Shown: piece by piece, positions 10,917-62,572 of the stretch
How positions within the stretch are numbered: position 1 is the stretch's first letter
Layout of the letters: every line of letters starts with the position of its first letter
Assembly (NCBI GenBank): GCA_903851035.1
Contig: CAINND010000079.1
Location: 1 to 64,000 of the forward strand
DNA: 64,000 nucleotides
Source: an uncultured Acidobacteriota bacterium
GTDB lineage: Bacteria; Acidobacteriota; Terriglobia; Terriglobales; Acidobacteriaceae
Direction: 5' to 3'
Notes under the pieces: model-generated
Databases searched by the model: none
Seen by the model: only the letters and a program-made list of their open reading frames with translations
What the model was told of the DNA's origin: nothing
Program-made: the position numbers and the translations under genes

Positions 10917-10950
10917 GCGTACGGCAGGTTCATATGGGCCTGCCGTACGC
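10917..10950. repeat. 12-bp perfect inverted repeat between sucD and ndk
   Basis: GCGTACGGCAGG at 10917-10928 pairs with CCTGCCGTACGC at 10939-10950 around a 10-base loop that contains CATATG. No T tract follows, so it is not a classical terminator. It sits 31 bases before the ndk start and could be an mRNA-end structure for sucCD or a protein-binding site. Confidence 0.6.
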
Positions 10951-11422: not shown

Positions 11423-11459
11423 AAAAGGTGCCGGGCAATCGCCTGGCACCTTTTCTTTT
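11423..11459. terminator. intrinsic terminator after ndk
   Basis: AAAAGGTGCCGGGC / GCCTGGCACCTTTT forms a 14-bp stem with one G-T wobble and the loop AATC, followed by TTTTCTTTTC. The A run on the other side also gives a T run on the minus strand, so it can serve the convergent VOC gene as well. Confidence 0.9.
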
Positions 11460-27879: not shown

Positions 27880-28648
27880 CGCCGCCGCCCTCCAGCCTTT
27901 GCAGCGCGCGCTGCGCCGCCTGCTGGCTGGCCATCTTCTTCGTCGCCCCACAGCCCTCGGTGTGGAACTCACCCTGCCCTGCTTTATGCGGCACTACGCC
28001 CGGCACCACCACTCGCATCACAAACTGCCGCTGGTGCGCCGGACCGCTGACTCCGGCCAGTTCGTAGATGGGTTCGCCGCGCCCTTCGGCCAGCAACAAC
28101 TGTTGCAACCGGCTCTTGTGATCGGCTGCCAGGGTCACCTCGCCGTCGCCGCCGGCCAGCCTCTCCAGCTCCGGCTCCAATATGTGACGCACCACAAACG
28201 CCCGCGCCGCCGCCATGCCGCCATCCAGATACAGCGCCGCCAGCACGGCCTCGCAGGCATCGGCCAGCAGCGCGCCCTTGCGCCGCCCGCCGCTCTTCTC
28301 CTCGCCGCGCCCCAGCCGCAGATGCTCGCCCAGTCCCAGCGTGTTGGCGCACAACCGCAGATGCGTGGCGTTCACCAGGTGCGCGCGCAGGCGGCTCAAC
28401 TCGCCCTCGCCGCGTCCGGGGTAGCGTGCCAGCAGTTCCTCGGCCGTCACCAGCCCCAGCACGGCGTCGCCCAGGAACTCCATCTCCTCGTTGTCCAGTG
28501 TGTGATCGCTCTGCTCGCGCGCAAAGGAGCTGTGGGTCAGCGCGCGCAGCAGCAGCTCGCGGCGGGCAAACCGGTGCCCCAGCACGGATTCCAGTTCATC
28601 CAGCGTTGGCCGTGTCATCGCACCTGTCGCCTTCGCGCGGGAGGTCAT
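27872..28648 (-). CDS. rnc: ribonuclease III
   Basis: 258 residues. Double-strand-specific RNase for rRNA and mRNA processing. The signature NEEMEFLGDAVLGL is at 53-66, with metal ligands Glu57 and Asp61; the second acidic cluster is GALLADACEAVLAALYLDGG. A C-terminal double-stranded RNA-binding domain begins DHKSRLQQLLLAEG and ends KKMASQQAAQRALQRL. The start ATG overlaps the upstream TPR gene stop as ATGA. It is the third gene of the run TPR-TPR-rnc-lepB-lepB. Confidence 0.95.
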   Translation of the reverse strand: MTSRAKATGAMTRPTLDELESVLGHRFARRELLLRALTHSSFAREQSDHTLDNEEMEFLGDAVLGLVTAEELLARYPGRGEGELSRLRAHLVNATHLRLCANTLGLGEHLRLGRGEEKSGGRRKGALLADACEAVLAALYLDGGMAAARAFVVRHILEPELERLAGGDGEVTLAADHKSRLQQLLLAEGRGEPIYELAGVSGPAHQRQFVMRVVVPGVVPHKAGQGEFHTEGCGATKKMASQQAAQRALQRLEGGGDE

Positions 28649-31116: not shown

Positions 31117-31230
31117 GCAAACACGGATCTTCAGGCAAGCCTCCAGGAACATAGCGCAGCGCAATCTATTGGTGCTTGTCTGCAAGTGTAAGAGGTGCGG
31201 GGCGGGTAAGTAAATGCCCGCGCAAGCCGG
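31117..31230. other. short gap before the repeat block
   Basis: No gene, terminator or promoter was recognised between the TPR gene start and the first hairpin repeat. Confidence 0.4.
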
Positions 31231-31372
31231 TGCCCCATTCAAGCCCTCTGTTGGCTTGAGTGGGGTATTTGTTCTTGCTCTTGTTTTTGCCGTTGTTCTT
31301 GTTTTTGTTCTTGTTCTTGATTTTGTTATTGCAGTGTCATCCTGAGCGCAGCGAAGGACCCCCGCGCGGCTG
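31231..31372 (+). repeat. composite dispersed repeat, copy 1
   Basis: Three parts in order. First a hairpin CCCCATTCAAGCC (31233-31245) with loop CTCTGTT and GGCTTGAGTGGGG. Then about 70 bases of TTG/TTC-type hexamers (GTTCTTGCTCTTG and similar). Then GTGTCATCCTGAGCGCAGCG followed by AAGGACCCCC. Copies 3 and 6 have the same order, so this is one composite family. Confidence 0.8.
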
Positions 31373-31416
31373 GCACCTTCAGTGCCGCTCCAGGTCACCA
31401 ATTAGAAAATTGTAGA

Positions 31417-31504
31417 GTGTCATCCTGCGCGAAGCAGGCGCCGAGCGCCTGCGGCCGGCAGCCGGGTGCCCCACCTTCGCCGCCTCTGTTGCGGCTAAGG
31501 TGGG
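31417..31504 (+). repeat. dispersed repeat, copy 2
   Basis: GTGTCATCCTGCGCGAAGC at 31417 opens an embedded hairpin GCAGGCGC (31434-31441) / GCGCCTGC (31445-31452) with loop CGA. A second hairpin follows: CCCCACCTTCGCCGC with loop CTCTGTT and GCGGCTAAGGTGGG (to 31504). The loop is identical to copy 1 while the stem sequence differs. Confidence 0.75.
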
Positions 31505-31521
31505 AATCAGTACCCTCCACA

Positions 31522-31655
31522 CGGGTGCCCCATCCTGGCCGTAGTTGCCAGGGTGGGGTAGTTGATTTTGCTCTTGCCTTTGCCGTTGTTCTTGCTCTTG
31601 ATTTTGTTTTTGCAGTGTCACTCTGCGCGAAGCAGGCGCGTCAGCGCCAACGCGC
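31522..31655 (+). repeat. composite dispersed repeat, copy 3
   Basis: GGGTGCCCCATCCTGGC, loop CGTAGTT, then GCCAGGGTGGGGTAGTTG; about 55 bases of TTG/CTC hexamers; then GTGTCACTCTGCGCGAAGCAGG and a GGCGC/GCGCC hairpin. It ends just before the anti-sigma gene stop, so it may also shape that transcript's 3' end. Confidence 0.75.
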
Positions 31656-31657
31656 CG

Positions 31658-32317
31658 TTATCCGCCCACGATGATGTTGCTGAAGCTGATGACCACTCGC
31701 CCGCTCGTTGGCAGCCCAAAGCTGGTCGCCGGGCGGAACTGCGTAAAGATCAGCGCGTTCTTCATCGCCGGTGACAGCTCGGTCGTTCCCGTTGCGCTCA
31801 GCACGCGGTAATCCTGCACCCTGCCATGCGGGTCGATGATTGCTTCCACCATCAGCGCCTCGCCGTTCGGCACGCCCGCATCCAGCCCAAAGGGCGTCGA
31901 GGTCATCTCCGGAGGCGTGTACAAACTGGTCGGCACGTCGTTATAGCTCACCGTGCGCGCCGGCACCAGCACGCCAATCAGCAGTCCAAAAATCACCACG
32001 GCGGATACCAATCCTGCCGCCGCCGGCAGCATAAAGGCGTTCAGCACGTTCTCCCAGCGCACCAGCACGCCCTGCCACGGCGATTGCCGGCGGCCCAGGT
32101 GCTGTGCGGCGGCCACGCGCAAACGCAGTTCCAAATCCACAGGAGCCGCCACTCGTCCCAGCCCCGCCAGCATCCGCCGATTCGCGTGCAGATCGGCGTA
32201 CAGGTTGCCGCACTCCTCGCACTGCCGTATGTGTCGTTCCACGGTCACGGCCTGCGCGGGCTCCAATTCGGAATCCAGCAGCGGCGAAAACCACTGCCGA
32301 GCTTCTGCGCATTTCAT
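31658..32317 (-). CDS. zinc anti-sigma factor with TonB-like C-terminal domain
   Basis: 219 residues. The N-terminus carries the zinc anti-sigma motif Hx3Cx2C (His29, Cys33, Cys36 in RHIRQCEECG) in a helical sigma-binding domain. A membrane segment is at about 97-119 (LPAAAGLVSAVVIFGLLIGVLV). The outer part ends with a TonB C-terminal-like domain (LMVEAIIDPHGRVQDYRVLSATG; FTQFRPATSFG). The start overlaps the ECF sigma stop as ATGA, the usual coupling of sigma and anti-sigma. The outer domain may sense an envelope signal; this fusion is unusual. Confidence 0.85.
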   Translation of the reverse strand: MKCAEARQWFSPLLDSELEPAQAVTVERHIRQCEECGNLYADLHANRRMLAGLGRVAAPVDLELRLRVAAAQHLGRRQSPWQGVLVRWENVLNAFMLPAAAGLVSAVVIFGLLIGVLVPARTVSYNDVPTSLYTPPEMTSTPFGLDAGVPNGEALMVEAIIDPHGRVQDYRVLSATGTTELSPAMKNALIFTQFRPATSFGLPTSGRVVISFSNIIVGG

Positions 32318-33030
32318 GGCGTCACCTCAACTTCCCCGCTGCTCGTAGCCAGCTTGGCGCGGCTGCCCGCCTGCGAAGCAGGCTCCGGCACAAGGCCCGG
32401 CTGGCTCTCCTCCAGCCGCTTGCGCAGCGCGTTGCGTCCGCGCACCAGCCTCGATTTCACCGTCCCCAGCGTCGTCTCAGTCATCTCTGCAATCTCTTCG
32501 TAGGTCATGCCTTCCATGTCGCGCAGCACAACCGTGGTGCGATAGTGCTCCGGCAACTCGCTCAGCGCCCGCTCCAGCCGCGCCCGCATCTGGCTGCGCG
32601 CCGCCATCTCGTAGGGGCTTGCACTGCCGTCGCGCAGCGTCTCAATCGGAGCCAGCGCCGCATTGGCCGTGCCCGTCTCGTTGCCCGTCCAGCCGTTCGT
32701 CCCCGCATCCAGCGGAGTCTCCTGCGCCTTGTGACGGAAGAACCAGCGCCGACGGTTGCTCGCCTCGTGGATGGCGATGCGATACATCCAGGTCTTCAGG
32801 CTGCTCTCGCCGTTAAAGCGGCTCATCCCGCGGAAGACCTTCAAAAACACATCCTGCGTCGCGTCCACGGCGTCGGCCGGGTCGTCGAGGATGCGGTACA
32901 CAAGGTTGTAAATGGACTGGTGATACTGGGCGATGAGCCATGTGTAGGCATCCTCGTTGCCGGCCTTCAACTCGGCCAGTATCGAGGCTTCCTCGGCGCG
33001 TATTGCGGAACCAACCGCCAATTCGCTCAC
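32314..33030 (-). CDS. ECF-type RNA polymerase sigma factor
   Basis: 238 residues from a GTG at 33030 with GGAG eight bases upstream; another GTG at 33054 is possible. Region 2 reads AYTWLIAQYHQSIYNLVYRILDDPADAVDATQDVFLKVFRG, and region 4 LPEHYRTTVVLRDMEGMTYEEIAEMTETTLGTVKSRLVRGRNALR. A spacer of about 45 residues rich in Thr/Asn/Ala separates them. It directs RNA polymerase to envelope- or stress-type promoters and is held by the coupled anti-sigma. The longest frame reaches 33222 but has no start signal. Confidence 0.93.
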   Translation of the reverse strand: MSELAVGSAIRAEEASILAELKAGNEDAYTWLIAQYHQSIYNLVYRILDDPADAVDATQDVFLKVFRGMSRFNGESSLKTWMYRIAIHEASNRRRWFFRHKAQETPLDAGTNGWTGNETGTANAALAPIETLRDGSASPYEMAARSQMRARLERALSELPEHYRTTVVLRDMEGMTYEEIAEMTETTLGTVKSRLVRGRNALRKRLEESQPGLVPEPASQAGSRAKLATSSGEVEVTP

Positions 33031-33342
33031 GGACGTGACTCCTACGGCGCTCACCGTATGCCCCCCATGGTAATCCTCACCAATTGCCAGAACAACCTTT
33101 TGCCAGCCGCACCTCGCTATTTCCCAATTCGGAGAACGCCAAAGCCTTCTCCCCGACAATGAGATAGACCCCGCCCACCCGGCAAAAGTTCCCTCAAAAA
33201 GTGCCAAAACATGAAAAAGCATTTAGGAAAGTAAATGAATGAGAGATGCCCATCTATTGCTTACAGAGGGGAATTTAATCTTGTAAAACCAGCAATCAAC
33301 TGTAATAGTCAAGCAAATCATCGCTAAAAAAGGAATTGTCAG
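33031..33342. other. intergenic region upstream of the sigma gene
   Basis: 312 bases between divergent genes. The part from about 33220 to 33342 is A+T-rich and may hold promoters for the secreted-protein gene on its right. No clear -35/-10 pair, repeat or RNA was recognised. Confidence 0.4.
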
Positions 33343-34413
33343 ATGAAACATTCTGCATGGTTTCGTGCGATTTGGCTGGCTCTAATCACTTTGATTTTGA
33401 GTCTCACGTTAGTTGCGCAAGCAGGCGATCCGACGGACTTGCTGATAAAAGGGCTGAAGAAGCAATTTGTACCGACGGTATTCAACAAAGACGAGACTGA
33501 GATTATTACTGCAGGCGTGGTTGTGGAAATCCAGAAGGACAGGCTACTGGTGTTCCGGCAGCCATTGGAATATTGCCCAATCAGCACCTACAAGAATGGC
33601 AAGCTCTCACAGGGGTTTCGTGATCAGGTGGATGTTGCGTTTGCGGATAAACTCGACGGTGTTAATGGATTCAGAAGCTATCCACAGAAGATGCTTGGCG
33701 TCGGAGACAAAGTCTGGATTAGCGGGTTTGGAATTTCAAACAAAAAGAATGCTTTTCTAGCTGTAGTCGTCACTGATCCCTACGACGATGGGCGCTATTG
33801 CGGAATGCTTCAATTCCCCTATGAAAAGGATCATCCGCCAACACCAGATGATGCAATGAGAATGATGTCAGAGGTGCTGGCGTCTCAGTCAGCACAAGAT
33901 AAATCAGCAATAGTGGGGCCGGTCCCAGAGGCAGCACCGAACCCGGCACAAGCCGGCCCGCCCCCACCACTTGCTGGCGATTACGCTTCAGCGGGAGGCT
34001 CACGCATCCTTTTGCTTTTAGACGGTACATTTGTGAAGTTTATGGGGAGCGGGCAAGTTCATGGCCAATATGTCGTTGATGGGGAGAACTTGACACTAAC
34101 GTTTCCCTCTACAGGATTTACCCAGCACTTCAAGTTACAAAGCGGCAAACTGATGGATGAGAATACTAAGCAGAAATGGGCTCGAACCGGGGACATCCCG
34201 GCTGATTCAGCGGCATATCAAGAAATTGCACCGCCGCCTCCACCAACTGATATAGCACCAATTATTTCTATCGGACAAACCAAGTCGCAAGTAATTACTT
34301 CACTTGGGGAGCCACAGCGCAAGACAGCTGCAGGGGCGAAAGAAATCTTCTTTTATACCAACCTGAAGACGAAGGTGACTTTCACTAATGGAAAAGTTAG
34401 CAACGTAGAGTAG
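33343..34413 (+). CDS. hypothetical secreted protein with SmpA/OmlA-like C-terminus
   Basis: 356 residues. A signal peptide (about 1-26, IWLALITLILSLTLVAQA) is clear. The C-terminal 55 residues (ISIGQTKSQVITSLGEPQRKTAAGAKEIFFY) resemble the short alpha-beta repeat seen in SmpA/OmlA (BamE)-type proteins, a pattern of about 'GMTk.qV...lG.P'. The middle has a Pro-rich linker and a beta segment (GQYVVDGENLTLTFP). AAGGA lies upstream of the ATG. Base composition is clearly lower in G+C than neighbours and the next gene has the same flavour, suggesting recent acquisition. Function unknown. Confidence 0.75.
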   Translation: MKHSAWFRAIWLALITLILSLTLVAQAGDPTDLLIKGLKKQFVPTVFNKDETEIITAGVVVEIQKDRLLVFRQPLEYCPISTYKNGKLSQGFRDQVDVAFADKLDGVNGFRSYPQKMLGVGDKVWISGFGISNKKNAFLAVVVTDPYDDGRYCGMLQFPYEKDHPPTPDDAMRMMSEVLASQSAQDKSAIVGPVPEAAPNPAQAGPPPPLAGDYASAGGSRILLLLDGTFVKFMGSGQVHGQYVVDGENLTLTFPSTGFTQHFKLQSGKLMDENTKQKWARTGDIPADSAAYQEIAPPPPPTDIAPIISIGQTKSQVITSLGEPQRKTAAGAKEIFFYTNLKTKVTFTNGKVSNVE

Positions 34414-34467
34414 AGCGTGCGTATGCGGACGGGCGCTTGGCTAACCCAATCGCCATAGAAAGGAAAA

Positions 34468-35163
34468 ATGATGAAGATGAAGGTTTGGCTATCGCTCCTC
34501 TTGGCATTTGGATTCTCCATCACGGCATATGGGCAGCAGAGTGCTCCGCCCTCGGCAAAACCCGCCGACAGCGGGCCTACGCTGGCAGCGACCATGCAAT
34601 TTATCCAAGAAAAGTTAAGCGAACATGGTCAGGTTGCTTATGCAATGCTCCGAAGCGATGACCCGGGAATTACTCATCGCACTATTGACAGAATCACAGA
34701 CGTAATGGCCGACCCAGGTGCGTGCACTCTATACATCACAGGGCTCTCCGACGGGAATATCATTCTTGCGCCGGGAATGACTCTCAAGCAGGGGTTGAGT
34801 ACCAACGACTACAGCACCCACAAAGTTAATACGGTCACAATCGCCTTCAAACAAGTCGAGAAAGTTTCTGTCTCCAAATTGCAGGATTACCAGAATCAAA
34901 CATTTGCAGAAGCTGGTCATCCAGAGATCACATCCTCATTAACACCGACGGTCTTCCATGTGAAGCTTTCGGGTTCCAGTGCCATTGTCACTGGGCACGT
35001 TTCCTTCACTCAGGGAACGCAGGCTCCCGTTGAAAGGGATATTACTAGCAAGATAATTGGATACACCTTCCGCGATGAGGAGACCGCCACCAAAATAGCC
35101 AAAGCAATGAAACATACTATGGAGTTGTGCGGCGGCGGTGTCACCAAGAAGGAACTCTTCTAA
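34468..35163 (+). CDS. hypothetical secreted protein
   Basis: 231 residues with a signal peptide (about 1-22, ending ITAYGQ). The body begins with a long amphipathic helix (TMQFIQEKLSEHGQVAYAML) and continues in beta-type text (VNTVTIAFKQVEKVSVSKL), then ends in a helix with LCGGGV. No catalytic motif is visible. AAAGGAAAAATG precedes the start. It lies 54 bases after the SmpA-like gene and shares its low G+C content. Confidence 0.7.
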   Translation: MMKMKVWLSLLLAFGFSITAYGQQSAPPSAKPADSGPTLAATMQFIQEKLSEHGQVAYAMLRSDDPGITHRTIDRITDVMADPGACTLYITGLSDGNIILAPGMTLKQGLSTNDYSTHKVNTVTIAFKQVEKVSVSKLQDYQNQTFAEAGHPEITSSLTPTVFHVKLSGSSAIVTGHVSFTQGTQAPVERDITSKIIGYTFRDEETATKIAKAMKHTMELCGGGVTKKELF

Positions 35164-35179
35164 ACGGTTAGTACGGACG

Positions 35180-35224
35180 GGTGCCCCATCCTAACCTTCC
35201 GTTGGTTAGGGTGGGGTAGTTGAC
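35180..35224 (+). repeat. hairpin repeat, copy 4
   Basis: GGGTGCCCCATCCTAACC, loop TTCCGTT, then GGTTAGGGTGGGGTAGTTGAC. The stem matches with one G-T wobble. It follows the stop of the secreted-protein gene by 16 bases and could end that transcript; no TTG tail or second block follows here. Confidence 0.7.
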
Positions 35225-35252
35225 CTAGTTTTTTATTTGGCAGTCGGCTTCT

Positions 35253-35426
35253 CTACTTCTTCTTGCCCTTCGCGGCCTCTTGCTGCACCGCTTTATCCCC
35301 GTCGCCCTTGTGCTCCCGGTTGTGACGCAGTTGCGCCTTGGCAATCTGCTCGGCGGTCATTGCGCTGTGGTGATCAGACTGTAGTACATCGCTCTTCGGA
35401 TTTGTGTTGTTCGGTGTGTTTTCCAT
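35253..35426 (-). CDS. small hydrophilic protein
   Basis: 57 residues from the ATG at 35426, which has AAGGG upstream. The text is polar and charged (NNTNPKSDVLQSDHHSAMTAEQIAKAQLRHNREHKG) with a basic end (AAKGKKK). No membrane segment or cysteine. It is probably disordered with one helix around AEQIAKAQLRH. Function unknown; its reality rests on the start signal and composition. Confidence 0.5.
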   Translation of the reverse strand: MENTPNNTNPKSDVLQSDHHSAMTAEQIAKAQLRHNREHKGDGDKAVQQEAAKGKKK

Positions 35427-35490
35427 AGTCCCTTCTTTCAACTTCTATCCCGCGGCGAGCGCCCAAAGTTACGAATAAGCAGAAAAGATT

Positions 35491-35530
35491 GGTGCCCCAT
35501 GTCTGGCCTGTTTTTGGCCAGACGTGGGAA
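35491..35530 (+). repeat. hairpin repeat, copy 5
   Basis: GGTGCCCCATGTCTGGCC, loop TGTTTTT, then GGCCAGACGTGGG. The stem is different in sequence from the others but still pairs along its length with the same single G-T wobble. Confidence 0.65.
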
Positions 35531-35692
35531 GCCGTCAGTTCCACCTCATAACAGGTTGACGTCCCCTGCAAGCCTTTCATCGGCCTGCGTGGGGCAAGTG
35601 TATTGGTCTTTGCCGCATCCGCCTGTGCCGGATTGACCATCCTCAGCCACTCCAACGGTAGATAGTGGTGATGTACCGAGGAGAACCATCCA

Positions 35693-35887
35693 ATGACGAC
35701 CGAATTCATCCACCTCACGCCGAAACCCGTTTCGCAGCACGATGCCCCCGCTCCGGCAACGACTCCAGTGCAAACAGAGAAGCAGAAAGCGCAGGAGCAG
35801 GCAGATCGCATCGCCGACGAAGCCGCCCAGCGCGCCGGCAACAGGGAAGAGCGCTACGACCAGGATCACGGCATTATCACCAAGTAG
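35693..35887 (+). CDS. small hydrophilic protein
   Basis: 64 residues. GAGGAGA lies about nine bases before the ATG. The protein is rich in Gln, Ala, Glu and Pro (AQEQADRIADEAAQRAGNREE) with no hydrophobic core, and ends DHGIITK. It lies between repeat copies 5 and 6 and is similar in flavour to the small gene on the opposite strand. Function unknown. Confidence 0.5.
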   Translation: MTTEFIHLTPKPVSQHDAPAPATTPVQTEKQKAQEQADRIADEAAQRAGNREERYDQDHGIITK

Positions 35888-35896
35888 CTCTCTACG

Positions 35897-35944
35897 GGCG
35901 CCCTACCCTTCCGCCCGCAGTTGGCGGAGGGTGGGGTAGTTGAT
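35897..35944 (+). repeat. hairpin repeat, copy 6a
   Basis: CCCTACCCTTCCGCC, loop CGCAGTT, then GGCGGAGGGTGGGGTAGTTGAT. It lies ten bases after the stop of the small plus-strand gene and directly before copy 6b, in tandem. Confidence 0.65.
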
Positions 35945-35950
35945 CTTGCC

Positions 35951-36110
35951 GGGTGCCCCACCCTTCCGACCGTAGTTGGCGGAGGGTGGGGTAGTTGCTC
36001 TTGTTCTTGCCGTCGTTGTTGCTCTTGTTGTTGTTCTTGATTTTGATCTTGTTCGTAGTGTCATCCTGAGCGAAGCGGGCGCCAAGCGCCCGCGCAGTCG
36101 AAGGACCCCT
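35951..36110 (+). repeat. composite dispersed repeat, copy 6b
   Basis: GGGTGCCCCACCCTTCCG, loop, GGCGGAGGGTGGGGTAGTTG; about 65 bases of TTG/TTC hexamers; then GTGTCATCCTGAGCGAAGC with an embedded hairpin GCGGGCGC (36075-36082) CAA GCGCCCGC (36086-36093); then GTCGAAGGACCCCT. This is the most complete composite copy. Confidence 0.8.
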
Positions 36111-60563: not shown

Positions 60564-62572
60564 GACTTCGCATCCGCCATTTGTCGATTAGGGTGACAAC
60601 CGACTCCGGCAATTTTGGGGCAGAACTGTCATTCGCGCCCGGACTGAATGTCATTCGCGCTTCCAACTCAATGGGAAAGTCCACCGCGATTCAGGCAATT
60701 GTTTATGGTTTAGGGCTTGAAGCTATCCTGAGCACTAGCCAAGGTGTGCCCTTTGCCCATGTCCTTACCCACTCGCTCAAAGCCGGGACTACAGAGGCCA
60801 ACGTTATTGAATCGTCCATTCTGCTTGAGTTTGAGAATGAAGCTGGGATTATCTGGACAACGGAGAGAACTGTTAAGGGCGAACGCAATCCTCATCTCGT
60901 TACAGTCTACTACGGGCCATTGCTCACTGCAGGGGGAAATCACCCTCGTCAGGACTTCTACGTGCGGCGACCTGGTGCCGCAAAGAATGAGGCTGGGTTT
61001 CATTGGAACTTTGCCGAGTTCATCGGCTGGCAATTGCCTCAGGTCGAGACGTTCGACGGGAATATCGTCCCCCTATACGTCGAGGCAATTTTTCCGCTCA
61101 TGTTTGTAGAACAGAAACGAGGATGGTCAGATATTCAAGCTCGGTTTCCTACCCAGTATCGAATCAAAGAGGTGAGCCAGCGCGCTACCGAATACTTGTT
61201 GAGATTGGATTCCTACGAACTACTGCTCAAACGGAGGTCACTAAACCAGCAGTCTTTCCAACTAGCGCAACAGTGGAAGTCTAAGGTTGATGCTGGAAAC
61301 GGCTACGCAAGCAGCGAGAATATGCGGGTTGAGGGCCTCCCAGCCGCGCCTACAACCCAATGGCCTCCAGAGGGCGGCACGCGCCTTCAGGTATTTCGTT
61401 CTGGGGAATGGGTGGACTACGAAGCAGCGCAGGAGACGGACAAATCCACTTTGCAACGGCTTCCAGTAGCTTCCCGCGTCGATAGTACAGTTGTACTATC
61501 GACACAAAAGGCTCTTGAAGACGCTGAGAAAGCACTGGCCTCGATTCAGTATGCTATTGGTCGAAAGCTAGATGCACAGGAACAGCTTGAGCTTGAGGTC
61601 ACTCGCATCAATAAGCGCGTTGGCGATATTGAAACTGAGATACGTCGCAACAAGGACGAACTCGTGTTGCGGAAACTCGGCTCACGGCAGAATCTGAGCA
61701 TTTCCGCGTCGAATTGCCCCACTTGTCACCAAGGTATCCCAGATAGCCTTGTTTCCGACCTTCGGGCAGAATTCATGACAGTGGAGGAGAACGTCGCTTT
61801 CTTGGAAGAGCAGCGGAAAATGTTCAAGGCTATCCTTGAGCGCACAACGAGAGACTTGGCACGTTCGCGTGTTGAACTAGCGGCTGACAGAGAAGAGGCT
61901 AATCGCATACGCAGCAGCATCCGTGCCTTGAACGCGACCCTAACCTCGCCCAATGGCACTCCCTCTACTTCGGACATCGAAGCTCGCCTAGCCATTCAGG
62001 ATGCGATCGAGCGGAGGGCGCGTGTGGTTCGCCGAATCGAGGAAGTCCAGTCGTCTCTCGCGGCATTGGCTGAGCAATGGGCTGCTAACGAAGCAGCGTT
62101 AGCAATACTCCCCAGGGGGGGTATCTCGGCCTCCGATGAACAGAAGCTTTCATTCCTGAATGAGAGTCTCCGCTCTCAAGTCAACGAGTATGGAATGGGC
62201 AGCATCGACACCAATGCCTTGACCATAAACCGCGATACATATCTTCCGAATCACGAGGGATTCAATCTCGCCTTCGATTTGTCGGCAAGCGACTTGATAC
62301 GAACAATTTGGGCGTACATGAACGGCCTGAGAGAAGTCGCGGTGAGATTCGAGACAAACCACCTCGGGCTGTTGGTGTTCGATGAACCAAAGCAGCAGGA
62401 CGCTGCGGCGGAGAGTCTAGCTGCATTTCTCAAGAGGGTCTCGCTGTCGGTAGCCGCCCACCATCAGGTCATAGTTGGTACGAGTGAGCCACTTGCTAGT
62501 CTCACTCCGATGCTCGCTGGCCTGCCCGTGTCTCTTGTGAAGTTTGACGGACGTGTCATCACCGAAAGGTGA
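60560..62572 (+). CDS. Rad50/SMC-like ABC ATPase with zinc hook
   Basis: 670 residues. Start chosen at the ATGA overlap with the middle gene; GGAG lies nine bases upstream. The N-terminal ATPase half has FAPGLNVIRASNSMGKSTAI with Walker A at 34-42. A long coiled coil (about 220-560) is folded at a zinc hook Cys386-Pro-Thr-Cys389. The C-terminal half has Walker B LLVFDEPKQQD (Asp608, Glu609), an ABC-signature-like LSASD before it, and HHQVIVGTSE, the H-loop. The head and hook resemble Rad50/SbcC but the protein is shorter. It is expected to form a DNA-bound ring or clamp with its two partners. Confidence 0.85.
   Translation: MRLRIRHLSIRVTTDSGNFGAELSFAPGLNVIRASNSMGKSTAIQAIVYGLGLEAILSTSQGVPFAHVLTHSLKAGTTEANVIESSILLEFENEAGIIWTTERTVKGERNPHLVTVYYGPLLTAGGNHPRQDFYVRRPGAAKNEAGFHWNFAEFIGWQLPQVETFDGNIVPLYVEAIFPLMFVEQKRGWSDIQARFPTQYRIKEVSQRATEYLLRLDSYELLLKRRSLNQQSFQLAQQWKSKVDAGNGYASSENMRVEGLPAAPTTQWPPEGGTRLQVFRSGEWVDYEAAQETDKSTLQRLPVASRVDSTVVLSTQKALEDAEKALASIQYAIGRKLDAQEQLELEVTRINKRVGDIETEIRRNKDELVLRKLGSRQNLSISASNCPTCHQGIPDSLVSDLRAEFMTVEENVAFLEEQRKMFKAILERTTRDLARSRVELAADREEANRIRSSIRALNATLTSPNGTPSTSDIEARLAIQDAIERRARVVRRIEEVQSSLAALAEQWAANEAALAILPRGGISASDEQKLSFLNESLRSQVNEYGMGSIDTNALTINRDTYLPNHEGFNLAFDLSASDLIRTIWAYMNGLREVAVRFETNHLGLLVFDEPKQQDAAAESLAAFLKRVSLSVAAHHQVIVGTSEPLASLTPMLAGLPVSLVKFDGRVITER

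Follow-up and report, generated by a model that had tools for sequence, protein, structure and literature searches.

REP/RAYT systems, which pair repetitive extragenic palindromic (REP) sequences with REP-associated tyrosine transposases (RAYTs), have already been published. The available parts of Nunvar et al. (2010, PMC2817692) describe a REP-rayt-REP organisation and the co-evolution of palindrome and RAYT in gammaproteobacteria, and they report suitable RAYTs from gammaproteobacteria only. According to the available parts of Bertels and Rainey (2011, PMC3116915), REPINs are short palindromes that form inverted doublets and are thought to be spread by RAYTs. A further paper, available in part, describes RAYT-like genes of Acidobacteria as TIRYTs or TIRtrons (PMC3733652); they have terminal inverted repeats, which in some overlap the 3' end and in one case have genome-wide copies. 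How RAYTs recognise palindromes, and whether they move them, are still debated questions. Here we analysed a family of short hairpins in 64,000 nucleotides of DNA from an uncultured member of the Acidobacteriaceae (contig CAINND010000079.1 of assembly GCA_903851035.1), the whole of which we call the window. Seven such hairpins of six stem types lie within 31229-35991, all on the + strand, on the common scaffold GGTGCCCCA...TGGGG.

A sequence-only reading of this DNA had proposed that the stems covary under selection for structure, as in an RNA element or a mobile hairpin. We conclude that the hairpins are likely REP-like, non-autonomous mobile elements of several subfamilies that are served by RAYTs. 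For most subfamilies, matching hairpins bound a transposase gene on either side, in the same genome or in a relative. The mobile-hairpin proposal is thus well supported, both by inverted pairs with the same stem around RAYT genes and by a stem similarity that tracks RAYT similarity.

RAYT genes between inverted hairpins

The genome to which the window belongs is a 3.26 Mb draft in 121 contigs. We found that it carries two open Y1_Tnp genes (L026 and L027) and one RAYT remnant on contig C94. Both open genes scored above the cut-off of 80 bits with the REP_Tyr_transpos profile NF047646 (111.8 and 110.4 bits), which classes them as RAYTs, and both stayed below the cut-off of 55 bits with the IS200/IS605 insertion sequence (IS) profile NF033573 (36.5 and 29.2 bits). 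Y1_Tnp is the sole Pfam family in either protein. The HuH motif H61-V-H63 and the signature Y120..N124-P125 (Y---NP) are invariant in our alignment A1 and present in both, and the best relative of solved structure is E. coli TnpA-REP (4er8, E 6e-14).

The sequence-only reading had suggested looking for an associated RAYT/Y1 transposase, and each of the two genes indeed lies between inverted hairpins of the same stem, one between a CCTTCCGCC pair and the other between a TTCAAGCC pair. In both cases the flanking palindromes recur elsewhere in the genome, as expected of a RAYT. The upstream hairpin repeat ends about 40-47 nt ahead of the start codon. The downstream hairpin overlaps the end of the gene and encodes its last residues (ELPHPPPKRRAEG, ELPHSSQKKA); the C-terminal tails of L026 and L027 are thus supplied by the hairpin, and in L027 so is the stop codon. 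The remnant on C94 has a CATCTG hairpin downstream and breaks off at a TTCAAGCC hairpin. At locus L019 (3880-4050), downstream-type sequence of a CATCTG RAYT remnant ends at a TTCAAGCC hairpin, which has a GGGTGGCCC head and is followed by a CCTAACC hairpin; here one element may have been broken into by another.

The hairpins are dispersed well beyond these genes. The pattern GGTGCCCCA-N(20-40)-TGGGG has 62 matches in the genome and its reversed form none. A genome-wide covariance model, another check proposed from the sequence, gave at least 125 matches with E values no higher than 0.01, a count that may be low since 150 of 2275 candidates were scored. The model was built on a MAFFT alignment, contains 6 pairs only and works mainly through sequence. 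Our first script found 105 copies in the fetched stretches and assigned them, with rough type labels, to subfamilies A (47), C (26), B (25), D (4) and E (1); the 2 unclassed copies were left out of the tail and orientation counts, which therefore use 103. An inventory based on stems held 114 hairpins and included 7 of type CCTTCG, 6 TGTCTG and 1 CATCTG, stem types that are also borne by RAYTs of congeners. By a rough gene call, 10 of the 103 copies lie inside a called open reading frame and 13 at the edge of a stretch. The copies are thus mostly intergenic, and with their number and their short palindromes they resemble REP elements. A related foot pattern, counted with overlaps, was found in other genomes 12 (G001), 10 (G003), 38 (G008), 13 (G016), 30 (G024) and 29 (G030) times, against 1, 2, 0, 6, 0 and 3 for the reversed controls in the same order.

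Comparison with congeners gave signs of movement. The order of the TPR, zinc-finger and sigma genes is kept in 2 of 3 congeners, the two that are comparable, as no TPR gene was found beside the sigma gene of G003. In these two the gap between the TPR and zinc-finger genes is about 165-180 bp (estimated) against 541 bp here, and none of the hairpins at 31229-31558 was found in it. The two RAYTs of our genome adjoin prfA and yfiH, and no RAYT was found in the 4-5 kb around these genes fetched from three congeners. We considered the prfA and yfiH loci as clean empty sites and rejected this, as downstream of the prfA-linked RAYT none of our own reading frames matched the congeners. G001 has two RAYT ends that share 98% identity for 367 nt inward of the hairpin foot and are unrelated just beyond it (16/60).

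These observations could also be read as the traces of an IS200/IS605-like transposon, or TIRtron, in which the hairpin-RAYT-hairpin unit moves as a whole and the scattered hairpins are remnants of its ends. The two G001 ends that diverge at the hairpin foot, the RAYT-free surroundings of prfA and yfiH in the congeners and the remnant on C94 that breaks off at a hairpin would all fit such solo ends. Against this, there are about 105-125 hairpins to two RAYT genes and one remnant, the proteins score under the IS200 cut-off, and head-to-tail runs of mixed subfamilies are unlike IS remnants. We therefore regard solo transposon ends as possible but on balance unlikely.

Paired stems and RAYT lineage

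We asked how far the stems covary. When the outer foot alone was required, 61 matches with 42 distinct interiors were found in the fetched stretches. Each interior had at least 5 of its 6 inner positions paired (38 had all six), with a mean of 5.90, while 2000 shuffles of the arms between copies gave a mean of 4.43 and never exceeded 5.12. Pairing is thus above chance, as the sequence-only reading held. With the copies collapsed into 15 distinct arm pairs, pairing stays above the shuffles by a narrow margin (5.73 against a maximum of 5.60). Folding the MAFFT alignment to a consensus gave 6 pairs only; because that alignment misaligned the stems, covariation was counted in register by a script. 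In the four subfamilies that have 4 or more copies, 57 single changes kept a pair and 23 broke one, and 4 double changes kept a pair and 1 broke one.

The covariation is genuine, and it lies mostly between a small set of stem subfamilies, not within them. What looks like compensatory mutation arises mainly because several stem subfamilies coexist. Independent compensatory evolution copy by copy is unsupported, with only 4 double changes that keep a pair within subfamilies. The original proposal that selection acts on structure and not on sequence oversimplifies: pairing is kept, but the sequence of the stem is near-fixed within a subfamily and matches a particular RAYT, so that both structure and sequence seem to count. 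More generally, covariation of stems among repeats of a genome need not signal an RNA function.

Such a function, in which the hairpins act either as RNA or by terminating transcription, and selection on the transcript keeps the stems paired, is very improbable here. It would agree with the many copies in which a GC-rich stem is followed by a T-rich tail, and with the few copies that lie between divergent genes (7/80 against a background of 23/108), a scarcity that is compatible with several readings. Yet the window has no Rfam match at gathering score, the hairpins are oriented in several ways relative to their flanking genes (rough gene call), and terminators leave unexplained why stem type follows RAYT type. 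The RNA-element half of the first proposal is accordingly abandoned.

We then compared stems with transposases across relatives. The RAYT search had matches in 37 of 61 genomes, our own included. A scan of named genomes yielded 78 loci, and the first 28 listed were used. Altogether 76 RAYT loci were analysed after removal of 4 duplicates, 69 of them nearly full-length. Acidobacteriaceae account for most of the loci and other families of the class for some. In 47 of these 76 loci, at least 8 of the 11 arm bases agreed between the flanking hairpins. Where both arms reached 11 nt (44 loci, the best pair being taken where several hairpins flank), the two hairpins of a locus had 5.48 of 6 inner bases alike, against 2.51 for shuffled pairs (maximum 3.30). 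Loci with exactly one hairpin per side (23, one near-duplicate removed) gave 5.39 against 2.44 (maximum 3.65).

The distance between RAYTs also correlated with the distance between stems. For 62 loci, 7 of the 69 near full-length ones having been dropped by a filter, the Mantel r was 0.218, and the highest of 2000 permutations was 0.146; with one near-duplicate locus removed (n=61) r was again 0.218 and the permutation maximum 0.191. At a protein distance below 0.3, 5.31 of 6 inner bases were alike (36 pairs), falling to 2.95 at 0.3-0.4 (236 pairs) and 2.24 at 0.4-0.5 (1024 pairs). The signal thus comes mainly from close RAYTs, because stem sharing drops beyond a distance of 0.3. Relatedness of the hosts cannot explain all of the correlation, since G003 alone has six RAYTs of five stem types. 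As flanking pairs share their stems and stem similarity tracks RAYT similarity, these sequence comparisons suggest that the inner stem is most likely the address read by the cognate single-strand transposase.

We propose that the RAYT, an HUH/Y1 single-strand transposase, would recognise the hairpin while the DNA is single-stranded, cut beside the hairpin foot and join the element to a new site. Copies would land or amplify head to tail, mostly between genes. The whole family has its head and foot (GGTG, CCCCA/TGGGG) in common, and the inner stem goes with the RAYT lineage. Binding, cleavage and movement would be provided in trans by the RAYT, and subfamilies without a resident RAYT may be leftovers or may be moved by a lost or related one.

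The seven hairpins of the window and their tails

The sequence-only reading counted at least seven copies that share GGTGCCCCA. Seven hairpins were confirmed, but six of them begin with the exact motif (31229, 31465, 31524, 35180, 35491 and 35952), and the one at 35897 opens with the variant GGCGCCCTA. The window has one more exact GGTGCCCCA, its seventh, at 28573; this one falls outside the interval of the hairpins and does not match GGTGCCCCA-N(20-40)-TGGGG. Seven occurrences compare with 0.92 expected by chance, and none of 100 shuffles reached seven. Folded as single-stranded DNA, all seven hairpins were better than their shuffles (z -3.0 to -7.0); the weakest was that at 35897, which 2 of 200 shuffles equalled. 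A scan of the window found perfect stems of at least 11 bp in four of the seven (31229, 31524, 35180 and 35491), and the remaining three (31465, 35897 and 35952) have an inner mismatch. We also confirmed the quoted stems, the loops resembling NNNNGTT and the T-G wobble that follows CCCCA; among 46 aligned copies, the pair at this place is T-G in 28 and C-G in 18.

The first hairpin (31229..31265, +) belongs to subfamily B (TTCAAGCC/GGCTTGAG), and its stem is identical to that of the pair around the RAYT on contig C92 (RAYT-B). It is followed by a (NNNTTG)n tail of 11 units (31266..31331, +). The next (31465..31505, +), of the CCTTCGCCG type with one inner mismatch, has the 6-nt inner stem of two RAYTs of the congener G003 (L038 and L048). 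The third (31524..31558, +) is of subfamily C, in a CCTGGC variant of CCTAGC, and carries a tail of 9 units (31559..31612, +). Its cognate RAYT was not found in our genome, and it has no exact RAYT match; subfamily C has TCCTAG in common with L035, L109 and L138. The hairpin of subfamily D (35180..35216, +; CCTAACC/GGTTAGG) has the 6-nt inner stem of L042, a RAYT of another genome with a hairpin on one side only. Resting on short 6-nt matches, the putative RAYT links of the hairpins at 35180 and 31524 are weak. The GTCTGGCC-type hairpin (35491..35528, +) has the 6-nt inner stem of RAYT L118 of the congener G001. The last two are of subfamily A (CCTTCCGCC) and have the stem of the RAYT on contig C37 (RAYT-A). 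One (35897..35936, +) has the head GGCG and the foot CCCTA; the other (35952..35991, +) has one stem change and a tail of 10 units (35992..36051, +), one of which reads TCG. Elsewhere in the window, unrelated strong hairpins with stems of 11-15 bp lie at 10917-10950, 11423-11454 and 61478-61503, the second of which (AAAAGGTGCC..GGCACCTTTT) is terminator-like in appearance.

Neighbouring copies within 400 nt have the same orientation, head to tail, in 46 of 47 pairs, and 1 pair is opposite; around RAYT genes, pairs in inverted orientation did occur. The head-to-tail runs could be the product of ordinary recombination and tandem duplication, in which case no transposase would act today and the RAYT link would be historical. 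Units that recur every ~166 nt on C37 agree with this as well as the shared orientation does. However, the copies are scattered over many contigs, neighbours in the window are often of different subfamilies, and the RAYTs of many genomes retain matching hairpins on both sides. We consider duplication without a transposase improbable and retain RAYT-served mobile elements as the preferred explanation.

The tails have a period of 6 nt. Counted from the end of TGGGG, successive sixth positions carry TTG in 79, 63, 45, 34, 24... % of the 103 copies, and other phases do so in 0-6%. Upstream of isolated copies the value is likewise 0-6%; the tail thus lies on the 3' side only and begins at the end of the stem. 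TGGGG(NNNTTG)4 was counted 23 times in our genome, 13 in G001, 8 in G024 and once each in G002 and G003; it was absent from the other 56 of the 61 genomes, and the reversed control was 0 everywhere. In long tails, which were selected by TTG, TTG is near-fixed (0-0.15 bits) and NNN is free (1.2-1.5 bits); a looser selection gave 0.34-0.74 bits for TTG and 1.41-1.67 for NNN. Recent slippage of a hexamer is unsupported, as neighbouring NNN slots are identical at 0.13 against 0.15 when shuffled. At an 18-nt step the identity is 0.26, against 0.17 (shuffle maximum 0.28).

We found 41 runs of at least 4 units. A hairpin lies within 80 nt upstream in 34 of them, and a second repeat, GTGTCATCCTGAGCG, within 60 nt downstream in 28. 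The idea that the tail marks the hairpin alone is weakened by the 7 runs without a listed hairpin within 80 nt upstream, of which 6 have the GTGTCATCCTGAGCG repeat downstream and at least one (L002) has a TGGGGTAG foot that the script missed. The tail might be a working part of the element, which would offer alternative cutting or joining sites in 6-nt steps from the foot where the RAYT launches or lands copies. We regard this as a long shot, and its odds were lowered in view of the tails that have no listed hairpin. If true, such sites would explain the head-to-tail pile-up in one orientation instead of inverted REPINs, and would amount to a mode of hairpin spread absent from the REP/RAYT literature that we compared. 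Nothing relevant to the tail or to the hairpin sequences was found in the open-licence literature.

The second repeat (GTGTCATCCTGAGCG...GTCGAAGGACCCC) has a variable paired stem of its own and occurs in the window at 31334, 31417, 31615 and 36058, all +. It often comes after the hairpin and tail, and 35 of the 103 copies have it within 120 nt downstream. When as many as 3 substitutions are allowed, it has 55 matches in stretches of our genome, some plainly by chance in genes, and it also occurs in G001. The hairpins that flank one RAYT (L147, G029) have a stem and loop (ATCCTGAGCGCAGCGAAGGGT) like the core of this repeat, a hint that it may be RAYT-linked too.

Comparison with REP, REPIN and TIRYT systems

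The family of the window behaves like a REP/RAYT system but is not a canonical REP, because the GT(A/G)G head and the inverted doublets, which were both tested for, are lacking. Several points weigh against RAYT-served mobile elements as set out here. The window copies have GTGC, and one GCGC, in place of the canonical REP head GT(A/G)G; among the TTCAAG-type RAYT loci a GTGG head is present in 7 of 8, our own L027 being the exception. The inverted doublets of REPINs and BIMEs, the proposed mobile form of REPs, are not what we see in 46 of 47 neighbouring pairs. For the abundant subfamily C no RAYT was found in our genome or in G001 as far as searched, and the two partial RAYTs that this search brought up in G001 bear TTCAAGCC. 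A well-matched hairpin pair is missing from 29 of the 76 RAYT loci, in some through missing flanking sequence. The correlation between stem and RAYT is of modest size, and the phylogeny of the RAYTs is in part confounded with that of their hosts. Among the genomes compared we saw no transposition event, no target duplication and no clean single-copy insertion. Finally, the upper stem of the E. coli palindrome can be swapped with binding and cleavage by TnpA-REP kept, according to the available parts of PMC8266576, so that the address need not lie in the sequence of the stem. The same parts describe recognition through a GTAG guide, with cuts at CT or CA.

The likeness to the described systems is otherwise broad. 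With REP-rayt-REP, so far as the available text describes it, the family has in common the NCBI transposase family, two inverted flanking palindromes, dispersed copies and a stem that co-varies with the transposase. It differs from those REPs in its head-to-tail clusters, in place of alternating BIMEs, and in the (NNNTTG)n tail of many copies. With REPINs, on the same partial basis, it shares short palindromes and a spread attributed to a RAYT.

TIRYTs are probably the nearest published relatives, as compared by description and motif rather than by published repeat sequences. Their motif GGGGWSAS, as given in the available text, is absent from the window scaffold (GGGGTAGT; reverse strand GGGGCACC), which was read directly, the RAYT loci of relatives lying outside this search. 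Most TIRYTs were later assigned to subclass 2.1 with a helix-turn-helix C-terminus, according to the available parts of PMC6006769, and by Pfam this C-terminus is missing from both RAYTs of our genome. The same parts give Class 3 TnpA-Y1, also acidobacterial, a Y----Q signature and a CnGA foot. The Y---NP signature and HuH motif of both our RAYTs are instead those of Class 2 TnpA-Y1 as described there. On a scaffold common to all, the family combines dozens of transposases with their stems, and G003 alone has six such pairs, which makes a recognition code testable between close relatives.

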